Source: Kribbella antiqua
GTDB taxonomy: Bacteria > Actinomycetota > Actinomycetes > Propionibacteriales > Kribbellaceae
Direction: 5' to 3'
NCBI RefSeq assembly: GCF_004345665.1
Contig: NZ_SLWR01000021.1
Location: forward strand, 1-64,000
DNA: 64,000 nt
Shown here piece after piece: positions 9,675 through 27,192 of this stretch. Below the pieces are notes generated by a model, which worked only from the letters and a program-made list of their open reading frames with translations, was not told the DNA's origin and did not search any database. The position numbers and the translations under genes are program-made. Every line of letters begins with the position of its first letter. The first letter of the stretch is position 1.

Positions 9675-9702
9675 ACTCTAACCACCCACACCGACAGACC
9701 AA
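9675..9702 (-). promoter_or_regulatory. Candidate promoter of the SMC operon
   Basis: On the minus strand a TTGGTC box (9702-9697) and a TAGAGT box (9680-9675) are spaced by 16 bp, about 50 bp before the kleisin-like start codon. The -35-like box lies inside the first 70-bp repeat; the same TTGGTC occurs in the second repeat, so repeats and promoter may be functionally linked. Read by eye only. Confidence 0.4.
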
Positions 9703-9905
9703 AACCGGCCCACGCGGCACCTGTGGACAAGTGCAAAAGACGGGGTGGGTGCGGTGCGCACCGACAGACCAAAACCGGCCCATGTGGCATCTGTGGACAA
9801 GTGCAAAGACGAAGTGCGGGGTGGTGTGCACCGGCAGAGCAAACCGGCCCAGGCGGCGCCTGTGGACAAGTGCGAAGGCGAGGCGGGCTGTGGGGCTGTG
9901 GAAAA
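9689..9905. repeat. Three 70-bp direct repeats with DnaA-box sequences
   Basis: Units start at 9689, 9759 and 9829. Each begins CACCGRCAGA, has a shared AAACCGGCCCA core and contains TGTGGACAAGTGC. The segment TGTGGACAA (9722-9730, 9792-9800, 9861-9869) is the exact complement of the DnaA box TTGTCCACA, always in the same orientation. A fourth, TGTGGAAAA (9897-9905), complements TTTTCCACA. Units 1 and 2 are more alike than unit 3, which has a 1-bp deletion. The array occupies the gap between the SMC operon and the methyltransferase gene and codes for nothing convincing. Confidence 0.85.
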
Positions 9906-16397: not shown

Positions 16398-16428
16398 TTG
16401 ACCTGAACTCAAGTTGAGGTTGCAGTCT
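16398..16428 (+). promoter_or_regulatory. MerR-type promoter/operator of the MDR gene
   Basis: TTGACC (16398-16403) and CAGTCT (16423-16428) are separated by 19 bp, the stretched spacing typical of MerR-family promoters. The spacer contains the imperfect palindrome CCTGAACTCAAGTTGAGG (16402-16419), which closely resembles SoxR-type operators. It ends 34 bp before the MDR start codon. No MerR gene is in the window, so the regulator would be encoded elsewhere. Confidence 0.6.
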
Positions 16429-16462
16429 CGAAGCACCTCAGCAAACAGATGAAGGAGCAGCT

Positions 16463-17437
16463 ATGCGGGCAGCAGTGGTGACCGAGTTCGGAGCGGCCGA
16501 CGTGATCAAGACGCAGGACTGGCCGGACCCCGAGCCGGCCGCGGGCGAGGTCCTGATCGAGGTGGCGGTGGCGGACATGATCTTCGTCGACACGGCGATC
16601 CGGCAGGGCCACCACAGCGAGTTCTTCGACGTGGAACCGCCTTATGTGCCAGGCAGTTCGCTGGCAGGCACGGTTCGCGTCGTAGGCCCGGAGGCGTCGA
16701 CGGACTGGATCGGCAAGACCGTCGTCGGCCGCTCGGTCGGCTTCGGTGCACATGCTGAGCTGGTCCGAGCCCAGGCTGCCGGCCTGGTCGAGGTCCCGGC
16801 CGGCCTCAACGTCGAGACGGCGGTCGCGGTCGCGGGCGACGGCCTCACCGCGCTCATGCTCGAGGACCTCGCCCCGCCCATGCAGGGCAAGGAGGTGCTG
16901 ATCACGGCCTCCGCCGGCGGTATGGGGCTGCTGCTGATCCAGCTCGCACACAAGGCCAGCGCACACGTCATCGCCGCCGCACGCGGCCAGGCGAAGCTCG
17001 ACCTCAGCAAGGCGCAGGGCGCGGACGTGGTGATCGACTACTCGCTCCCCGGCTGGGAGAAATCGGTGCTCGAGGCAACGAACGGACGCGGCGCCGACAT
17101 CGTGTTCGAGGGCGCCGGCGGCGAGCTCGGCGCAACGGCCTTCAGCGTGGTCAGGGACGGCGGCTGGTTCTCCGCCCATGGCGCCCCGAGCGGCGGATTC
17201 GCGGCGTACGACGTAGCCGACGCAGAGCGCCGGGGGATCACGGTGAAGGGCATCCACGACCTCCGCGCCGACACCACGACCACGACGATCACCGGCGCCG
17301 ACGTCATCGCCAGGGCGCTCGCCGGCGACCTCTCACCGGTCGTCGACAAGGTCTTCGACCTCGACCACGTCGCGGACGCGCACGCCGCCCTGGAGCAACG
17401 CACTCTGCTGGGCAAGGCCCTGATCCGCGTCAAGTGA
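16463..17437 (+). CDS. Zinc-independent MDR oxidoreductase (NADPH:quinone reductase-like)
   Basis: 324 residues. A GroES-like N-terminal domain (GEVLIEVAVADMIFVDT) is followed by a Rossmann domain with the TASAGGMGLLLIQLA nucleotide-binding loop. The C-terminus is EQRTLLGKALIRV. The cysteines and histidine of the structural and catalytic zinc sites are absent, placing it in the quinone oxidoreductase/QOR branch. It likely reduces quinones or enones with NADPH. The SoxR/MerR-like promoter suggests induction by redox or electrophile stress. Confidence 0.9.
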   Translation: MRAAVVTEFGAADVIKTQDWPDPEPAAGEVLIEVAVADMIFVDTAIRQGHHSEFFDVEPPYVPGSSLAGTVRVVGPEASTDWIGKTVVGRSVGFGAHAELVRAQAAGLVEVPAGLNVETAVAVAGDGLTALMLEDLAPPMQGKEVLITASAGGMGLLLIQLAHKASAHVIAAARGQAKLDLSKAQGADVVIDYSLPGWEKSVLEATNGRGADIVFEGAGGELGATAFSVVRDGGWFSAHGAPSGGFAAYDVADAERRGITVKGIHDLRADTTTTTITGADVIARALAGDLSPVVDKVFDLDHVADAHAALEQRTLLGKALIRVK

Positions 17438-17448
17438 CGCAGCGAGCC

Positions 17449-18780
17449 TCACTCAGCCGGTTGGTCTGAGTGATCCGTGACCGCAGGCGGGTTCGGCCGG
17501 GCCGCGACGATCCGGTTGCGGCCGTCCCGCTTGGCGCTGAGCAGCGCGTTGTCGGCGGCCAGCACCAACTGGTCCATGGTGTCCGCGACGTCCGGGTACA
17601 CCGCCGCGCCGAACGACGCCGGCACACCAGTGATCACCGCACTGGCCGTGGTCGCGGTGTCCACTGACACGCTCAGAGCGCTGAGCCGGTCCCGGATCCG
17701 CTCGGCGATCTCCAGCACCTCAGTCTCGGACGCACCGGGCAGCAGGACAGCCAGCTCGTCGCCACCGACCCGTGCGACCAGGTCACCCTGCCGGACCTCC
17801 GCCCGTACGCTCTCACCGACCGCACGCAGCGCCTGGTCCCCGGCGGGGTGGCCGTAGGTGTCGTTGATCTCCTTGAACTTGTCCAGGTCCAGCATCAGCA
17901 GACCGACCGAACTGCGCAGCGTCTCCGCACGAGCAAGCTCAGCCGGCACGGCGCTCGCCCAGTACGCTGGAGTCGCCAGACCGGTCTTGACGTCCGTACC
18001 CGCGGCCCGCTGGAACTGCGGCAGCAGCAGATCGCGATGCAGCGTCAGCACCGTCACCATCAGGATCGGCACCACCCACGGGTACGACGCCTGGAGCGCA
18101 CCCACCGCGACACCGAGACCCAGGCCCGCTACCACCACGAGCTGGTCGGACAGGTCTCCCAGCGCGCCACGGGCGGTGGCGTCGGGGGAGGACAGCAGGA
18201 TCGCACCGATCACCAGAGCGAAGTTCACCAGCCACCAGGTCGTCGCCGCACCCAGCACGACCAGCAGCGACCACGGCCCGGTCGGCACGCGCGGCTCGGA
18301 CAGCAGGCCACCAGCCCGCAGTACGGCGGCCGCCGCGGCGCTGGCCAGGATGAACGTGCTGGCCGAGAACACCTTGCGGTGCGCGATGGTCCGGCCGTAG
18401 ACCCGGATCCAGGAGTAGCCGTACGAGACCACGACCAGTGCGACGACCAGGCTCAGCGGGAGCAGCAGCAGGCCCGCGAACACCCAGAGGCTCTTCAGGT
18501 TCGTGTATGGCGAAGTGTTGGCCGCCATCTCGCGTCGGCGCTCGATTCCGCGGGCAGACTCCAGGTGGAGTACCGAGGCGGCCGCCAGTACGGCGAAGGC
18601 GACCCACTCGGACGGCCTGACGCCGGCTCGGGCGCCGGAGATCGTCGAGGCCACAGCCAAGGCGGTGATCGTGACTGCGACTGCGTCCACGCCGAGCACA
18701 TAGCTGACGGCAGGACGGGGCAACGACCAGAGCTTCCACCGGCGGGGTGGCACCCAATTGCTCCGACCGATCAGAATCAT
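17449..18780 (-). CDS. Membrane-bound diguanylate cyclase (GGDEF)
   Basis: 443 residues. Residues about 28-245 hold several hydrophobic helices forming an integral-membrane sensor region of unassigned type. A GGDEF domain follows (about 262-425) with the active-site GGDEL at 339-343 (A-site intact) and an RxxD product-inhibition site (RQGD, 330-333) five residues before it. It should make c-di-GMP from two GTP at the membrane and be feedback-inhibited. It is transcribed away from the GNEWF-repeat gene, and the 121-bp gap must hold both promoters. A CGCGAG/CTCGCG hairpin (18838-18860) lies there. Confidence 0.92.
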   Translation of the reverse strand: MILIGRSNWVPPRRWKLWSLPRPAVSYVLGVDAVAVTITALAVASTISGARAGVRPSEWVAFAVLAAASVLHLESARGIERRREMAANTSPYTNLKSLWVFAGLLLLPLSLVVALVVVSYGYSWIRVYGRTIAHRKVFSASTFILASAAAAAVLRAGGLLSEPRVPTGPWSLLVVLGAATTWWLVNFALVIGAILLSSPDATARGALGDLSDQLVVVAGLGLGVAVGALQASYPWVVPILMVTVLTLHRDLLLPQFQRAAGTDVKTGLATPAYWASAVPAELARAETLRSSVGLLMLDLDKFKEINDTYGHPAGDQALRAVGESVRAEVRQGDLVARVGGDELAVLLPGASETEVLEIAERIRDRLSALSVSVDTATTASAVITGVPASFGAAVYPDVADTMDQLVLAADNALLSAKRDGRNRIVAARPNPPAVTDHSDQPAE

Positions 18781-18901
18781 GGTGGCCTCACACGGTTAGA
18801 CCTGAGCGGTTATTCCTGAATAGTAACGGCCTGTTCACGCGAGGTCATCCCCGGCTCGCGTTAATTCCATCCACTGGATGGCGACGGAAGGATCCAGCAC
18901 C

Positions 18902-19099
18902 ATGTCCAAGATCAGCACCGGCAACGAGTGGTTCCACGGCGGCAACGAGTGGTTCACCGGCAGCGGCAACGAGTGGTTCCACGGTGGGAACGAGTGGTTC
19001 CAGGGCGGGAACGAATGGTTCACGCAGAGTGGCAACGAGTGGCTGCGCCGTCCGGGTGGATCCGGTAACGAGTGGTTCACCACCGGTAACGAGTGGTGA
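18902..19099 (+). CDS. GNEWF-repeat small protein
   Basis: A 65-residue protein made of a short leader MSKIST and eight GNEW units. Six read GNEWF, one GNEWL, and the last GNEW ends the protein; spacers are mostly HG, TGS, QG, TQS or TT. Tryptophan makes up 8 of 65 residues, and there is no cysteine, signal peptide or membrane helix. ATG 18902 is preferred because GGAAGGA lies shortly upstream; ATG 18878 would add eight residues. The DNA units drift at third codon positions while the GNEW amino acids are kept, which argues for selection on the protein. I know no named family. Tandem-core RiPP precursor, ligand-binding repeat or structural peptide are all possible; no modifying enzyme is adjacent. 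Confidence 0.75.
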   Translation: MSKISTGNEWFHGGNEWFTGSGNEWFHGGNEWFQGGNEWFTQSGNEWLRRPGGSGNEWFTTGNEW

Positions 19100-19178
19100 T
19101 TCGCCGCTGACCACCGAAATTTCTTTACCGACTTTTTACGGAGCTGGTTCGGAGATATTTGCGCGGATCTCCGGCGGC

Positions 19179-20423
19179 TCACCCGGCACCCATTTCGGCG
19201 GTGCCGGACCCGGTACGGCGGGTACGTGCCCAGGCAGTGCCCGCCGCCAGGGCCGCACAGGCGCCTGCGACACCCATCAGGCCCAGTGCGACCGACGGCG
19301 ACCACTCGTCCGCCAATAGGCCGGCGAGCAGGATGCCGATGCCCTGACTGCTCTTCAGGGCTGTGCTCGCCACTCCGAACGCCTGGCCACGCTGTGAGTC
19401 CGGCACGGCCTGAACGAAGGCCGCGCTGGTCGGCAAATGGTAGGCAGAGGCGAGGCCCGACACGGCCCACAACGCCACAGTGGGCAGCAGGCCTGGCGCG
19501 AAGAGGCAGAAGATCAATGGTGCGCACGCCAGCACAGCCAGAGGCGCCAGCAACCCCAGACGTCGCTCTGGCGGCCACAGCGTGATGAGCCACATGCCTG
19601 CAACAGCTCCGGCCGGGCTGGCAGCCAGGAGCAGTCCGGCGGCTTCAGCGCCCTGGCCTATCTCATGGGCGTACGGGACTGCGAGGCCCTCTACTGTGAC
19701 GTAGAAGCCGGCAATGGTCGCTAGCACGACCAGCGCCCGGAGTTTCGGCGTACGGGCGACGAGTCTGAAGCCAGAGGATAGGTCGCTGAAGTAGCTGCCT
19801 TGTGGCTCATCTGTGCCACGCGCAGGCACCGGACGGCGTCGTACTCCGATGGCTATGAGGACTGCGGAGAGCAGGAAAGTCGCGGAGTCCAGCAGCAGGC
19901 CGCCTGACGTGCCTACGGCGACTACGACGACCCCACCGGTGCCGAAGCCGAGGACCTGGCTGAACTGGACGACCATGTCGTTGGCCGCCTTGCCCAGGAC
20001 GTAGTGGTCACCTGGCAGTACGGCGGGGAGCGTTGCGGCACGCGCTGCGTTGAAAGGTGAGCCGAAAGCCTGCAAAGCAAGCAGGAGCAGGATCACTACC
20101 ACCAGCGGTAGCGCCTGGATCGCCATGGCCGCGACCAACACTGCACGGGCCAGGTCGGTGACGATCATTACTGCGCGGCGGGGATAGCGGTCTGCGAAAC
20201 CGGCCAGCAATGGACCGAAGAGCAGGTCTGGCACATAGGTCAGTGCATAGGTCAGTGCGGTGAGGCCGGCGGACTCGGTGCGGTCGAAGACCAGCACTGA
20301 CAACGCGACCCGCGCCAGCTGGTCGCCCGCGACGGACAGCACGCCGGCCAGGAACAACGCCCTGAACTCCGAATGCCCGAACACGTCCCGCCAGCGGGCA
20401 CGCTCGATGACCCCACCCTCCAT
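19179..20423 (-). CDS. MFS transporter (MFS_3/enterobactin-exporter-like)
   Basis: 414 residues with about 12 transmembrane helices. The opening FRALFLAGVLSVAGDQLARVALSVLVFDRT and the loop GFADRYPRR between helices 2 and 3 are typical of the MFS_3 group of drug and siderophore exporters. A second-half TSAAFVQAVPDSQRGQAFGV segment is also characteristic. It probably exports a small molecule by proton antiport. It converges on the GNEWF-repeat gene with an 80-bp gap, so it is not in its operon, although they are neighbours. Confidence 0.9.
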   Translation of the reverse strand: MEGGVIERARWRDVFGHSEFRALFLAGVLSVAGDQLARVALSVLVFDRTESAGLTALTYALTYVPDLLFGPLLAGFADRYPRRAVMIVTDLARAVLVAAMAIQALPLVVVILLLLALQAFGSPFNAARAATLPAVLPGDHYVLGKAANDMVVQFSQVLGFGTGGVVVVAVGTSGGLLLDSATFLLSAVLIAIGVRRRPVPARGTDEPQGSYFSDLSSGFRLVARTPKLRALVVLATIAGFYVTVEGLAVPYAHEIGQGAEAAGLLLAASPAGAVAGMWLITLWPPERRLGLLAPLAVLACAPLIFCLFAPGLLPTVALWAVSGLASAYHLPTSAAFVQAVPDSQRGQAFGVASTALKSSQGIGILLAGLLADEWSPSVALGLMGVAGACAALAAGTAWARTRRTGSGTAEMGAG

Positions 20424-20872
20424 GCCTTAGACCATAACCACAATCCGTGGTGCGACACCTCCCGCCTGTGACTGAAAGGGTTTCCCTGCGCGTGGGGAGG
20501 GTTGGTTCAAGGGTTTGATCACGGCAAATCAGTGCCAGATGGGGTGCCCGGTGGCGACCGGTTTGGATGAACGTTCTACTCTGGAGATCTCTGGTACCGG
20601 GGTCTGGGCGGGGCGGCCCCGACCCTGGTACCAGAGTTCTTCTTTGTCCGGACCTGTATCCGCCGGTCCAAGGCGCACAGGACCGACCGGGGCGGTGGGG
20701 TGGGGGACGCAGCCAAAACTGTCCGTGGCGGCCGGTAGCGTTCTTCTTGCCAGGGGCGGCTCCTGGACGTGCTTCCTTCTGCTTCACCAGGCCAAGTAGC
20801 GCGTCCGCTCTCCGCCCCTGGCTCCTTCATCCACGAAGACGTGGCGGGAAGACCTGCTGGGGAGGAGCGCGC
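20424..20872. other. Non-coding divergent region between MFS and RING genes
   Basis: 449 bp without a convincing gene. It separates the divergent MFS and RING-finger genes. The notable content is the large hairpin with T-rich tail at 20589-20645, annotated separately. The 228 bp between that hairpin and the RING start codon are GC-rich with no further structure that I can support. Confidence 0.7.
20589..20645 (+). terminator. Terminator-like hairpin in the leader of the RING gene
   Basis: Arms 20589-20604 and 20621-20636 pair over 16 bp with one mismatch, enclosing an inner GGGG/CCCC stem. TTCTTCTTT follows directly. The shape is an intrinsic terminator in the plus direction, yet no plus-strand gene lies upstream, so it could be an attenuator for the RING-finger gene or stop antisense readthrough. 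Confidence 0.5.
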
Positions 20873-23440
20873 ATGCCGGATCAGCCGCGCCACGATCACG
20901 CCGCCGTCCTGTTGCGACGCCGGCGACTCGTCGACGCGACCGCGCTGACCCCGCCAGTACGGCGATCCGCCTGGCAGTGGCTGCGTCGTCCGCTCACCAT
21001 CCAGGCAGGTCTGTCCGCGTTGCAGGCCGACCTGATCGAGCGCGGCTTCCTCCTGTCCGTCGGCCTCTACCGGTACTGCACCGGCCTGTCGGCCCCGGCG
21101 CTCGCGGGATTCGGTCATTCGCTGCTCGACCTCCTCGATGCCGAGTCTGGGTACGACGCGTCGCAGGTGCCACTGTTCCGCGGCTTCCCCGAGAGCGTGC
21201 CGGGCAACACCGAGACGCTCTACATCAACCGGACCTTCGCGCGGTTGCTGCAGGAGCCCGAGCAGCCGTGTGTCATGTGCGGTGACGCGAAGTCGGTGCA
21301 CGCCGTCTCGCCCTGCGCACACCTGATCTGCCGGACCTGCTGGGACGGCACCGACTTCAGCGCCTGCCCGGTCTGCCAGCGCCGGATCAACCCCAACGAC
21401 CCGTTCCTGAAGCCCTCCCCGCACGAGGAGCAGCCCGCCCACGTCCGCTCGGATCGACTTCAGCTCCTGACCCTCGCGCCACACGACGCCGTACGGTCGA
21501 CAGTCGACGCTCTACTCGTACGGCGCTCGCCGCTGTCCGCAGGTGATCGCGCCGACCTGAAGGTGCTGCTGGCCGGAGCGGATCTATCGTGGTTGCCGGA
21601 CGAGATCCCGGTGCGGGAGACCCGCGCGCTGGTGCTCGCGCAATTCCTCGACGACCATCCACACCTGATCGATCGCGCCGGTACGGCAACCGACGTACTG
21701 CGGCTGGTCTACGCCCTGATGGATGCGGATCCAGGTCTGCGGACCGCGCCGGCCCGGCGGAAGTCGTTGCCTCGGGCAACTCGGCGGGCGGTGCTGGCCC
21801 GGCTCGACCGGCTGCCGGCCGATGCTTTGGTCGAGGACATGCTCAGGCATGAACGAGCCTGGAAGCGGGTCGCGGAGAACCTTCATCCTTTCGAGTTCGC
21901 GACCCGGTATCCGCTGGCGGCGCTGGCGTTCGCGGTGGTGCGCCGTACCGAGCTGGATTCGGGGAGCGCGGCCGGCCGCGCGGTGTTGGGCGAGGCGGCG
22001 CGGCGTCCCTTCGTGCGGTTGGAGGGGCGGCGGCTGACGACGAACACGTTCGCCGCGCGCGTCGAGGGCGCGTTCGCGGACGGTCGTCCGGGGCATGCGC
22101 TCGATCTGTTGCGGGATCGGCCGGGGGAGCTGGTGCGGCGGCTAATGCAGCTCGCGCGGGAGTTGCCCGCGGATCAGCACGGTGCGCTGGTGGATGCGCT
22201 GACGACTGCTGTCTCGGATGTGTCGCCGGTGGTGATCACGGCGGCGCTGGGGCAGGTGCGGACGCCGCCGGGTGATCTGCGGCTGTTCTTTCCGCGCGGC
22301 GGGACCACCCGGATCTGGACGACGGTGGATGAGCGGGAGCCGTTGCCGGCCGAGCTGGCTGCCGCGTTGTCCGGCGTACTGGTCGGGGAAATGTTGCGTC
22401 GGGCAACGGATTTGCCACGGCTGCGGCGGGTGTTCCTGGACGAGGAGCTGGCGCGGCTGGCGGCGCCGGGCTCGGAGCGGAGCGGGTCGTCGACACTGCT
22501 GCGGATGACGCGGGGGAGTGCGGTGCCGATTCCGCAGGACGAGCTGCTGCGGTTGTTCCTGCACTGGGTCGAGCCGCGGGACCGGCGGGTGGATCTGAAT
22601 CTGTCCGTAGCGGTGTTCGGGGAGGAGTGGGACTTCGTCGGGCTGTGTGACTACAGCCGGCTGCGGTTCGATCAGGATGCGCTGGTCCACTCCGGCAATC
22701 TGATGTCCGCGCCGGGTCCGGCCGGGTCGACCGAGTTCGTGGATCTGGACCTGCGCGCCGTACGACGGGTTGGCGGGCGATACCTGCTGCCGGTCGTGTT
22801 CAGCTACAACAACGTGCCGTTCGACCAACTCGAGCGTGGGTTTGTCGGGGTGATGCGGCAGCCGAACGGGCTGTTCGATCCGGCGGCGGTCGAGGAGCGG
22901 TTCGACCTGGCCGGGCCGGCGACGATCCTGCTGCCGTTCGGCCTCGACCTTCAGACGAAGGAACTCCGCTGGTACGACGTCAACCTCGGCGCCGCGGGTT
23001 ACCGGAACAACATCGCGCGGTACGGCGGTCACCTCGCACTGATGGCGGCGACACTCGAGGAGGTGCACGGCTCCGGCGACCGCGTCAGCCTGTGGGAGAT
23101 CTGCTGCTGGCACGCCGCGGCCCGCACCGACGAGGTCGTCGTACGCTGCGCCGACGGCTCGGTCGTCGGCTACCTCCGCGACCCGTCCGAAGACCTCGTC
23201 ACCTTCGCCCGCCGCTTGACCGCTCACCTCGAGCCCGACCGCCCCTGGGACACGGACGCCGCGATCCAGGCCGATCTGGCCGCCGTACTCACCGCCGACA
23301 TCACGCCGCGCCGCGGCGCCCAGATCTACGCCCTCCACCCCCATCTTCTGGACCCGGCCGCACACCTCCTCATAGACGCCCCCCACCTCCTCACCACGCT
23401 CACCCCCGACACCCGAGCCCACACCCCGCTCCACACCTGA
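20873..23440 (+). CDS. RING-finger protein with TerD-like C-terminus (MXAN_6230/SCO0854 family)
   Basis: 855 residues. A complete C3HC4 RING-HC finger lies at C133, C136, C148, H150, C153, C156, C165 and C168. A long helical middle (about 190-560) follows. The C-terminal part (about 565-760) resembles a TerD calcium-binding stress domain (LNLSVAVFGEEWDFVGLCDYS, VDLDLRAVR, LLPVVFSYNNVPF). The overall order matches the MXAN_6230/SCO0854 family found in actinobacteria and myxobacteria, function unknown. RING fingers are ubiquitin-ligase modules in eukaryotes; here it may be a protein-binding site. ATG 20873 is chosen for its GAGGAG ribosome site; longer frames are non-coding leader. Confidence 0.85.
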   Translation: MPDQPRHDHAAVLLRRRRLVDATALTPPVRRSAWQWLRRPLTIQAGLSALQADLIERGFLLSVGLYRYCTGLSAPALAGFGHSLLDLLDAESGYDASQVPLFRGFPESVPGNTETLYINRTFARLLQEPEQPCVMCGDAKSVHAVSPCAHLICRTCWDGTDFSACPVCQRRINPNDPFLKPSPHEEQPAHVRSDRLQLLTLAPHDAVRSTVDALLVRRSPLSAGDRADLKVLLAGADLSWLPDEIPVRETRALVLAQFLDDHPHLIDRAGTATDVLRLVYALMDADPGLRTAPARRKSLPRATRRAVLARLDRLPADALVEDMLRHERAWKRVAENLHPFEFATRYPLAALAFAVVRRTELDSGSAAGRAVLGEAARRPFVRLEGRRLTTNTFAARVEGAFADGRPGHALDLLRDRPGELVRRLMQLARELPADQHGALVDALTTAVSDVSPVVITAALGQVRTPPGDLRLFFPRGGTTRIWTTVDEREPLPAELAAALSGVLVGEMLRRATDLPRLRRVFLDEELARLAAPGSERSGSSTLLRMTRGSAVPIPQDELLRLFLHWVEPRDRRVDLNLSVAVFGEEWDFVGLCDYSRLRFDQDALVHSGNLMSAPGPAGSTEFVDLDLRAVRRVGGRYLLPVVFSYNNVPFDQLERGFVGVMRQPNGLFDPAAVEERFDLAGPATILLPFGLDLQTKELRWYDVNLGAAGYRNNIARYGGHLALMAATLEEVHGSGDRVSLWEICCWHAAARTDEVVVRCADGSVVGYLRDPSEDLVTFARRLTAHLEPDRPWDTDAAIQADLAAVLTADITPRRGAQIYALHPHLLDPAAHLLIDAPHLLTTLTPDTRAHTPLHT

Positions 23441-24160: not shown

Positions 24161-25549
24161 TCAGGTTGCCGGGATGGGGTGGTGGGGGAGGCGGATTTGG
24201 AGGGTGGTTTGGCCGGGGTGGCTGGTGATGGTGATGGTGCCGCCGTGGTGTTCGGTGATGATGCGTTGGGCGATGTCGAGGCCCAGGCCGGTGCCTTTGC
24301 CGACGTCCTTGGTGGTGTAGAAGGGTTCGAAGGCGCGGGCGGCGACCTCGGGCGGCATGCCGGGGCCGGTGTCGGTGAACTCGACGACGATGCGGTCGCC
24401 GTCGGTGCGGGTGGTGATCCGCAGGGTGCCGGTGCCGTCCATCGCGTCGACGGCGTTGTCGATGAGGTTGGTCCAGACCTGGTTCAGTTCGCCGGGATAG
24501 GCTTCGATCCGGGGCAGGTCGCCGTACGCGCGGATGATCTCGATGCCGCCGCGGAGTTTGTGGCCGAGCATCACCAGGGTGGACTCGATGCCCTCGGTGA
24601 TGTCGATGGTCTGGATCGATCCGCGGTCCATCTGCGAGTACGAGCGTACGGCGGCGACGAGCTCGGTGATGCGCCGAGTCGACTCCTTGACCTCGCCGAG
24701 CAGGGTCGCGGTCGACAGCGTGCTGGCCACCCACAACAGACCGGGCTCGGTGGCGTCGCCAAGTACCGAAGCCGCCCGCGAGAGCCACTCGACCGTGGCT
24801 CCGGCAGCGGCGAGCGGTGGCGCGATCAGCCAGTCCTCAGCGATGCCCTGCCGATCGAGCCAGTCGGAGATCACGTTCTCCTGATCGGCGAGATCGACCG
24901 GATCAACCGCCGCGGCCCCACCGAGTTCCAGCCGCAGCGAGTCGAGTTCGCTGAACTGCGCCGCCGAAATCTCACCAACAGCGAGTCGCTGCAAAGCCGA
25001 CAGCAACGTCGCGCAGGCCGATTCGAGCGCACTGACCGAGCGGGAGGCCGCCGCGGCGGGGTTGTTGATCTCGTGCGCCAGCCCAGCCGCCAGCGTTCCC
25101 AACGTGATCAGCGCGTCCCGCTGACGGGCCGTCGACTCGATCGCACGCGCGGTCCCGTACACACCCTTGATCAGATGCCCGCCGAGCGGGAACCAGTCGT
25201 CGACCCGCTCCCGCAGTACGGCGGCCGGCACCCGCAGTACGCGACCTTCTTCAACGCCACGCCCGCTGGCGAGATAGACGCCGTGCTCGTCCCACGCCCG
25301 GAACCCGCCGGCCCAGCGACCCGGGACGTCCATCTTCCCCATCACGGTGTCCTCGCGACCGATCCGGCGGTGCAGCGCGATGGCGCCGTCGACAAGCACC
25401 CACCAGAAATCGGCCGGCTCACCTTCATGGAACAGGTCGACGCCAGGCTCGATCCGCAGCTCGAACCCGCCCTCGATCAGCTCGCCCAGCTGGATATCGG
25501 TCAGCCCGACGAAGAGGCCGATCCCGCGCAGGTCGTCGACGGTGATCAT
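24161..25549 (-). CDS. Sensor histidine kinase with N-terminal cyclic-nucleotide-binding domain
   Basis: 462 residues, cytosolic. Residues about 5-125 form a cNMP/CRP-like sensor domain (FVGLTDIQLGELIE, DLFHEGEPADFWWVLVDGAIAL). The H-box is AGLAHEINNPAAAA (about 185). The ATPase domain has N-box WTNLIDNAVDAM, G1 DTGPGMP, and G2 GKGTGLGLDIAQRI. ATG 25549 overlaps the stop of the upstream gene by one base, so the two are translationally coupled and form a two-component pair. The ligand of the sensor domain is unknown. Confidence 0.92.
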   Translation of the reverse strand: MITVDDLRGIGLFVGLTDIQLGELIEGGFELRIEPGVDLFHEGEPADFWWVLVDGAIALHRRIGREDTVMGKMDVPGRWAGGFRAWDEHGVYLASGRGVEEGRVLRVPAAVLRERVDDWFPLGGHLIKGVYGTARAIESTARQRDALITLGTLAAGLAHEINNPAAAASRSVSALESACATLLSALQRLAVGEISAAQFSELDSLRLELGGAAAVDPVDLADQENVISDWLDRQGIAEDWLIAPPLAAAGATVEWLSRAASVLGDATEPGLLWVASTLSTATLLGEVKESTRRITELVAAVRSYSQMDRGSIQTIDITEGIESTLVMLGHKLRGGIEIIRAYGDLPRIEAYPGELNQVWTNLIDNAVDAMDGTGTLRITTRTDGDRIVVEFTDTGPGMPPEVAARAFEPFYTTKDVGKGTGLGLDIAQRIITEHHGGTITITSHPGQTTLQIRLPHHPIPAT

Positions 25550-27192
25550 CAGAACGTCGCCAGGTAGCGGTGGACGAGGTAGACCGACATCGCGCCCTCG
25601 CCGACGGCGGACGCGACGCGTTTCATCGAGTCGAGCCGGACGTCGCCGGCCGCGAACACGCCAGGCAGGCTCGTCTCCAGCGCGAACGGCGGCCGCGCCA
25701 GCGGCCAAACTCCGGAAAGAACCAGATCAGGCCCGGTGACGATGAAGCCCCGCTCATCCCGTACGACGGAGTCGCCGAGCCACTCGGTCCGCGGCGACGC
25801 ACCGGCGAAGACGAACAACCAACTCGCCGGCACCTCCTCAGACTGCTCAAACGTGCGAAGCGTCAGTGCCTCCAGATGCCCGTCGCCCCGGCAGCCGACC
25901 ACTTGGGTCCGGCACCGCACCTCGATGTTCCGCGCCGCGCTGATCTTGTCGACGAGGTACCGCGACATCGAGGTCACCAGCGTGTCGCCGCGGACCAGGA
26001 GCACCACTCGTTTGGCATACCGCGCTAGGTTCAGCGCGGCCTGACCAGCTGAGTTCGCCGCACCGACGACGTACACCTCCTCGCCCTGACACTGACTGGC
26101 CTCGCTCGCCGTCGCTCCGTAGTACACGCCGCGGCCGGTGAGGTCGGCGAGGCCTTCGACGTCCAGCGTCCGGTAGGAGACGCCCGTAGAGACGATCAAC
26201 GAGCGGGCCTCGATCTCTCCGGATCCCTCCAGCAGTACGGCGTGCACAGGTCCGCGGGACTCGAGGCCGACGACGGACCGCGCGAGCACCATCTCGGCAC
26301 CGAAGCGCGAGGCCTGGGCCACGGCACGCGCAGCCAGGTCGGAGCCCGTCAGACCGCGAGGGAAGCCGAGGTAGTTCTCGATCGCCGCACTCATACCAGC
26401 CTGGCCGCCCGGCGCTTCGCGCTCCACGATGACTGTGCTCAGACCTTCGGATGCCGCGTAGACAGCTGCTGCCAGCCCGGCCGGTCCGCCGCCGACGATG
26501 CAGACGTCGTACAGCGGCTGCTCGGCGCGGGTTCGCAGGCCGAGCGCGGAGGCGAGGTCGACCGTGGACGGCGAGCGGAGGGCATCGCCTTCCGGTACCA
26601 AGACCAGCGGCAGGTCGACGTCAGAAGCCGAGGCGAGTTCGCGCAGGCGTTGCCCCTCGGCGTCGCGCTCGACGTCGTACCAGCGATAGGGCACGTGGTT
26701 GCGGGCGAGGAAGGTCTTGATGTCGTGGGCGCGGTCGGACCAGCGGTTGCCGATCACTCGGACGTCGGAGGTGTGCTCCGGGTTGGCCTGCCGCCAGTCG
26801 CCGAGCAGATCGTCGACGACCGGGAACAGCTGATCCTCGGGCGGATCCCAGGGCTTGAGCAGGTAGTAGTCCAGGCCGATGTCGTTGATCGCCTTGATCG
26901 CGACGTCGGTGTCGGCGTACGCGGTGAGCAACAGGTACTTCGCGGTCGGCGCCTGATCTCGCGCACGCTCGAGCAATTCGATGCCGGTCATCCCGGGCAT
27001 CCGCTGGTCGGTCGCGATCAGGGCGATCGGCTGGTTACGCAATGCGAGTTTCGTCAGTACGGCGAGCGCCTGGTCACCCGAGGTCGCCTTCACGACGAAG
27101 TAGTCGTCGCCGTAGCGCCTGCGCAGGTCACGGGAGATCGCCGCCGAGACCATCGGGTCGTCGTCGACGGTGAGAATCGCCGGTTTGCTCAC
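25549..27192 (-). CDS. Response-regulator receiver fused to thioredoxin-reductase-like FAD oxidoreductase
   Basis: 547 residues. A receiver domain (1-125) has the acidic pair in LTVDDD, phospho-acceptor Asp in IATDQRMPGMTG and Lys in LLKPWDPP. A linker with a thioredoxin-like look follows. A TrxR-type FAD/NAD(P) domain then runs from about 230 to the end, with FAD motif CIVGGGPAGLAAAVYAA, PGGQAGMS, NAD motif VYVVGAANSAGQAA and the closing GVFAAGDVR. The dithiol CxxC expected in thioredoxin reductase is absent (the region reads TASEASQCQG), so it is probably not a classical disulfide reductase. Phosphorylation by the partner kinase would control an oxidoreductase rather than DNA binding. Confidence 0.92.
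   Translation of the reverse strand: MSKPAILTVDDDPMVSAAISRDLRRRYGDDYFVVKATSGDQALAVLTKLALRNQPIALIATDQRMPGMTGIELLERARDQAPTAKYLLLTAYADTDVAIKAINDIGLDYYLLKPWDPPEDQLFPVVDDLLGDWRQANPEHTSDVRVIGNRWSDRAHDIKTFLARNHVPYRWYDVERDAEGQRLRELASASDVDLPLVLVPEGDALRSPSTVDLASALGLRTRAEQPLYDVCIVGGGPAGLAAAVYAASEGLSTVIVEREAPGGQAGMSAAIENYLGFPRGLTGSDLAARAVAQASRFGAEMVLARSVVGLESRGPVHAVLLEGSGEIEARSLIVSTGVSYRTLDVEGLADLTGRGVYYGATASEASQCQGEEVYVVGAANSAGQAALNLARYAKRVVLLVRGDTLVTSMSRYLVDKISAARNIEVRCRTQVVGCRGDGHLEALTLRTFEQSEEVPASWLFVFAGASPRTEWLGDSVVRDERGFIVTGPDLVLSGVWPLARPPFALETSLPGVFAAGDVRLDSMKRVASAVGEGAMSVYLVHRYLATF

Follow-up and report, generated by a model that had tools for sequence, protein, structure and literature searches.

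A 65-residue repeat protein (REP), encoded in the 64,000-nucleotide stretch of Kribbella antiqua DNA analysed here (the window), was found to be a member of a family of tiny tryptophan peptides that has apparently not been described before. The type of REP co-varies with the membrane sensor half of a divergently encoded diguanylate cyclase (the GGDEF protein), and this combination of a peptide with a co-varying sensor of a c-di-GMP enzyme suggests a new peptide signalling system. The features of the locus are listed in Table 1.

Table 1. Features of the REP locus (window positions; strand "." where none applies)
Feature	Position	Strand	Basis
REP, 65 aa, eight GNEW(F/L) units	18902..19099	+	translation, orthologues, dN/dS
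Ribosome-binding site GGAAGG, 10 nt 5' of the REP ATG	18886..18891	+	purine-rich at the same spot in orthologues
Membrane diguanylate cyclase, divergent to REP; GGDEL active site, RQGD I-site five residues ahead	17449..18780	-	
N-terminal membrane sensor half of the GGDEF protein, residues 1-255; holds all 17 NEW/NDW-discriminating residues	18016..18780	-	
Block common to type (NEW/NDW), not species: sensor half, intergenic region, REP	approx. 18000..19250	.	sliding identity
Probable regulatory element, conserved, between the divergent REP and GGDEF genes: GTAAC...GTTCAC...GTCATCC	18823..18850	.	
MFS transporter, convergent to REP; usual third module part, proposed exporter	19179..20423	-	

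The translation of REP, MSKISTGNEWFHGGNEWFTGSGNEWFHGGNEWFQGGNEWFTQSGNEWLRRPGGSGNEWFTTGNEW followed by a stop codon, agrees exactly with the composition given in the original prediction (GNEWF six times, GNEWL once and a final GNEW), as well as with its statements that the protein is rich in tryptophan (8 of 65 residues, 12.3%) and devoid of cysteine and of a signal peptide. The ribosome site, which had been called good, keeps its placement in the orthologues. The motif is preserved despite variation at third codon positions, all four GGN codons being used for its glycine. The proposed dN/dS analysis gave whole-gene values of 0.23–0.27 in two ortholog sets, i.e., strong purifying selection, as had been supposed, and in the set of NDW type (see below) the motif codons showed pN = 0.000 versus pS = 0.31. 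With orthologues in 37 of the 38 Kribbella genomes, chance occurrence is far off, and REP is a real gene. The author of the prediction knew of no family with this repeat; indeed, REP has no match in Pfam or NCBIfam, and Rfam gave none within 16400–21000. No relevant paper on GNDWF/GNEWF repeats or the micropeptides was found in the literature searched, where most subscription papers fall outside coverage.

The copy number of REP in Kribbella ranges from 2 to 8 units, and nearly every copy terminates in N[DE]W-stop. One of the 37 genes, that of genome G028, is decayed by a frameshift, and genome G029 has retained the GGDEF gene and lacks REP. The search of actinobacterial genomes that had been recommended revealed a genus-wide distribution in Kribbella, but no REP-profile homologue among the sampled genomes of other Propionibacteriales and of the rest of the class (total searches of 298 and 395 genomes). 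A profile match in Camelimonas was rejected as looking like chance, and so was a weak one (G396, locus L122) that lies antisense to a gene of Lys/Ala repeats.

REP exists in two forms, NEW and NDW, and within one genome nearly all units are of the same type; in two NDW genomes, S or T replaces the unit glycine. Gene conversion as the source of this uniformity is ruled out by the third-position data, since different repeats differ as much within a genome (0.369) as between genomes (0.364), while the same repeat position differs by 0.172 between genomes. Vertical descent of two clades is contradicted by the SNF2, RING, QOR and MFS trees, in which NEW and NDW genomes are interspersed and at least three switches are required. 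Just 3' of the REP stop (window 19110–19150) lies a conserved TTTAC-rich element, with the palindrome AGGTAAATCTTTACCT in NDW-type genomes.

The original prediction correctly described the neighbours, a diguanylate cyclase divergent to REP and an exporter convergent to it, but missed as the key point that the peptide type follows the sensor half of the former. When alignment columns that separate the 15 NEW from the 21 NDW genomes without exception were collected, all 17 were found within residues 30–239 of the GGDEF protein, in the membrane half, and none in the catalytic half. The tree of the sensor half shows a clean NEW/NDW split, whereas in that of the catalytic half the NDW clade G034/G035/G006 falls among NEW genomes. 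According to sliding identity, the block shared by type excludes both the catalytic end of the GGDEF gene and the MFS gene. This block is most simply explained by allelic exchange of sensor and peptide as one unit; since the sensor half adjoins REP, linkage alone could also yield such co-travel. Judged by its A-site and I-site motifs, the GGDEF protein of the window is a predicted diguanylate cyclase. Its AlphaFold2 model (mean pLDDT, 42) was too poor for mapping of the 17 residues. The intergenic GTAAC-GTTCAC-GTCATC element has an 11-bp period and is present in 34 of 35 Kribbella upstream regions (loose pattern); presumably, it resembles the binding sites of OmpR-type regulators.

The MFS gene, only 80 bp from REP, still does not follow the NEW/NDW type. 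It is present in 30 of the 38 Kribbella loci and missing in eight. REP is contracted, frameshifted or absent in seven of the eight genomes without MFS and in none of the 30 with it (Fisher p = 6e-7), a statistic that rests on only about four independent losses. In G028 the MFS gene is lost and both REP and GGDEF are frameshifted, and in G031 it is absent though REP is intact. Other features of the window include a large protein with a prokaryotic RING finger (PF14447; 20567–23440), syntenic in 38/38 Kribbella genomes, a response-regulator receiver domain fused to a pyridine nucleotide-disulphide oxidoreductase domain (25549–27192), and a 70-bp unit in 2.8 tandem copies (9689–9881).

Searches with the GGDEF and MFS proteins for paralogous pairs elsewhere in Kribbella uncovered further modules with the same order as in the window (MFS, gap, GGDEF). 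All of the examined gaps contain, on the strand and in the place of REP, an ORF of 6–7 codons with a strong Shine-Dalgarno sequence, coding for MQNNDW, MRNNDWH, MRNNDWP, MRNNDWT, MRNNEW or MRNGEWH. A DNA pattern for these micro-ORFs matched 20 distinct loci in 17 of the 38 Kribbella genomes; all 20 adjoin a GGDEF gene, and 19 an MFS gene as well. The same pattern found nothing in a class-wide sample of 395 genomes, which includes a single Kribbella genome, that of the window.

Outside Kribbella, relatives of the sensor half are found at 35–42% identity in another actinobacterial family (f23), and weaker ones in further families. Their gaps harbour tandem, separate ORFs of 7–8 codons in 1–11 copies, mostly spaced by 66–79 nt, every one of which has a ribosome site and a stop codon to itself; the peptides include MRDNTWT, MRDTTWS, MRGNSWD, MRANSWD, MRDNNWN and MRDNKWSR, among others. 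In the fetched loci (888 kb, both strands counted), array-type ORFs are confined to the gaps except for about one. With a looser pattern run on 17 whole genomes, nearly all matches were in gaps and about five were isolated, the reversed-pattern control giving four. Among gap ORFs of 5–9 codons with a Shine-Dalgarno sequence, 133 on the sense strand have Trp at position 6 and nine do not; on the opposite strand the corresponding numbers are zero and one. Codons of the arrays vary synonymously (Ser AGC to TCC included) with the peptide unchanged. In the profile of 136 units, Trp is invariably at position 6, and positions 3 and 5 are non-aromatic save for His in a few.

On plasmid p1 of Pseudonocardia sp. 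DSM 110487, MRNHNW is encoded three times, in separate ORFs, upstream of the gene for the GGDEF protein WP_255622856.1, with no MFS gene, and in Nonomuraea gerenzanensis MVRGVTWT is encoded upstream of a related GGDEF protein. GTG-start micro-ORFs (VRGNSWD twice, VRENCW) adjoin the same GGDEF type at loci L249 and L250. The REP unit, G-N-[DE]-W-F, aligns with micropeptide residues 3–7, mostly G/D/N/A-N-x-W-x, and REP is a fused, amplified version of the N-x-W-type core of the micropeptides. The repeated two-unit ORFs of genome G357, MRDTNWVLRDTNWSW, are a natural intermediate towards it.

Flanking genes vary among module contexts, while GGDEF and peptide are constant and MFS is usual. ThiF and lactonase neighbours were rejected as module parts, being confined to one syntenic group; in that group (L237:1-938 and syntenic loci), the ThiF-family protein is encoded near the MFS gene, 1.3 kb beyond it. 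The micropeptide of L237 ends in Asn, like MccA. Across 52 modules, and with phylogeny only in part removed by such tests, partial Mantel analysis related peptide to sensor given the catalytic half (r = 0.38, p = 0.0005) and not peptide to catalytic half given the sensor (r = -0.01); the values for peptide and sensor given MFS, and for peptide and MFS given the sensor, were 0.44 and -0.10, respectively. The GGEEF and RxxD I-site motifs are kept in 49/49 module rows examined.

We favour, with moderate confidence, a reading in which the diguanylate cyclase sensor has the peptide as its cognate ligand, the MFS protein is the probable exporter, and c-di-GMP output is set by peptide binding. Tryptophan peptides, most with a [G/D/N/A]-N-x-W-x core, each have a membrane diguanylate cyclase as partner and, in most cases, an MFS transporter as well; a high peptide dose might be reached through repeats in one ORF, arrays of 7-codon ORFs or reiterative translation. 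The peptide, usually exported by the MFS protein, would bind the N-terminal membrane domain of the cyclase, and NEW-type and NDW-type REP would represent two matched peptide-sensor specificities. The existence of the module, its protein-coding character and the co-variation with the sensor half are established, whereas binding, export, processing and c-di-GMP output are inferred. REP itself may be cleaved into units, perhaps after W and before the usual F or L; no protease or signal peptide for its processing or export was identified. Because peptides without a nearby MFS gene exist in Pseudonocardia and some GGDEF relatives, this MFS protein cannot be a universal exporter. Of the functions first suggested for REP, the best fit is that of a precursor with several peptide copies, given that the core is carried by relatives as separate 6–8-codon genes; a recognisable leader is absent, no modification enzyme was found among the scanned window proteins nearby, and processing is a proposal. 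A polymer-binding repeat and a membrane-surface peptide found no support. More tentatively, and with less confidence than we give to the ligand role, the system may constitute a new signalling class, in which an unmodified Trp peptide with dedicated MFS export is sensed by a diguanylate cyclase, leading to c-di-GMP, and specificity types are exchanged between species. No peptide-pheromone diguanylate cyclase was found in the literature searched, which excludes most subscription papers.

Another possible explanation is an intracellular role without export: as a short-motif effector, the peptide would attach directly through its xNxWx motif to the GGDEF protein, on the cytoplasmic side or at the membrane, and REP would be a multivalent form. 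The lack of a signal peptide, the peptide-GGDEF pairs without adjacent MFS (e.g., in Pseudonocardia) and the fact that the peptide follows the sensor half and not the MFS all agree with this; it is nevertheless doubtful, as 30/38 Kribbella loci and most of the other modules have kept the MFS gene, whose loss accompanies REP decay. The co-variation might also be mere hitch-hiking within one recombination tract, REP having an unrelated role, and the adjacency of REP and sensor half with their divergent starts is compatible with that. We consider this unlikely, given that the MFS gene, which lies on the other side at a distance of only 80 bp, is not carried along with the type and that the pairing recurs in independent paralogous modules of other genera.

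Slightly less probable again is a role in natural product biosynthesis: the peptides would be precursors of a small modified compound, either a minimal RiPP or an antibiotic of the microcin C kind, with MFS as its exporter and GGDEF as its regulator. A Met-Arg seven-codon gene beside an MFS gene recalls mccA, the seven-codon microcin C precursor gene (MRTGNAN; PMC6495379), biarylitide genes measure 18 bp (PMC13417212), and a ThiF protein adjoins the module in one syntenic group. However, ThiF is missing from the other contexts, P450, radical SAM and adenylyltransferase enzymes are not recurrent across them, none was found among the window proteins scanned (~8.4–29.7 kb), and the peptide type tracks the GGDEF sensor. 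Finally, the arrays could act through translation, sequestering ribosomes or sensing charged tRNA-Trp: ORFs of 2–8 codons can undergo reiterative translation (PMC6495379), and the Trp is invariant. This seems very improbable, since non-Trp residues are conserved despite synonymous change, including Ser AGC/TCC, the peptide sequence follows the sensor, and REP holds the same core within a single long ORF. Moreover, a same-strand downstream gene, as a Trp attenuation leader would have, is absent, the next gene being the convergent MFS.

Diguanylate cyclases are widespread, and the signals of their membrane sensors are rarely known. If the peptide is the ligand, as we favour, a likely cognate signal is encoded beside its sensor and is short enough for synthesis, so the signal becomes directly testable, with the NEW and NDW types as a built-in specificity control. 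An evolutionary route is also visible, from a single micro-ORF through an array to a fused repeat protein. Separate 7-codon genes in tandem arrays would be, to our knowledge, without precedent, and genes this short are missed by annotation.

The relatives of REP, itself of 65 codons, resemble microcin C in their Met-Arg genes of about seven codons (MRDNTWT, MRGNSWD, MRNNDWH) and transporter partner. They differ in the many tandem separate gene copies, the invariant Trp, the GGDEF partner and the absence of a C-terminal Asn rule; an MccB-type adenylyltransferase is lacking in most contexts, and no ThiF-family one was found beside the window locus among the Pfam-scanned proteins. The biarylitide gene bytA, an 18-bp actinobacterial gene for a five-residue precursor, often Met-Arg, is likewise overlooked by annotation (PMC13417212). 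The present actinobacterial genes share with it the few codons, the frequent Met-Arg start and the missing annotation, but have Trp at position 6 and a diguanylate cyclase link. They lack the aromatic residue that biarylitide precursors carry at position 3, as well as the aromatic residue or His of position 5 except for His in a few units, and no cross-linking P450 was found among the scanned window neighbours or beside L237. Like REP with its eight units, the yeast alpha-factor and multi-core RiPP precursors carry several copies of a short core in one ORF; unlike them, REP has no known processing sites, no multi-core RiPP modification enzyme was found near it among the scanned window proteins, and its closest relatives are separate ORFs. 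In Agr, ComX-ComP and ComC-ComD, strains or species that differ in peptide type also differ in the membrane sensor domain, the two forming matched alleles, and the same co-variation, with the caveat of linkage, is seen here. Unlike these pheromone pairs, the system described here lacks a leader and a dedicated processing protein, has a GGDEF output instead of a histidine kinase, and encodes its peptides in genes of 6–8 codons or in a fused repeat.
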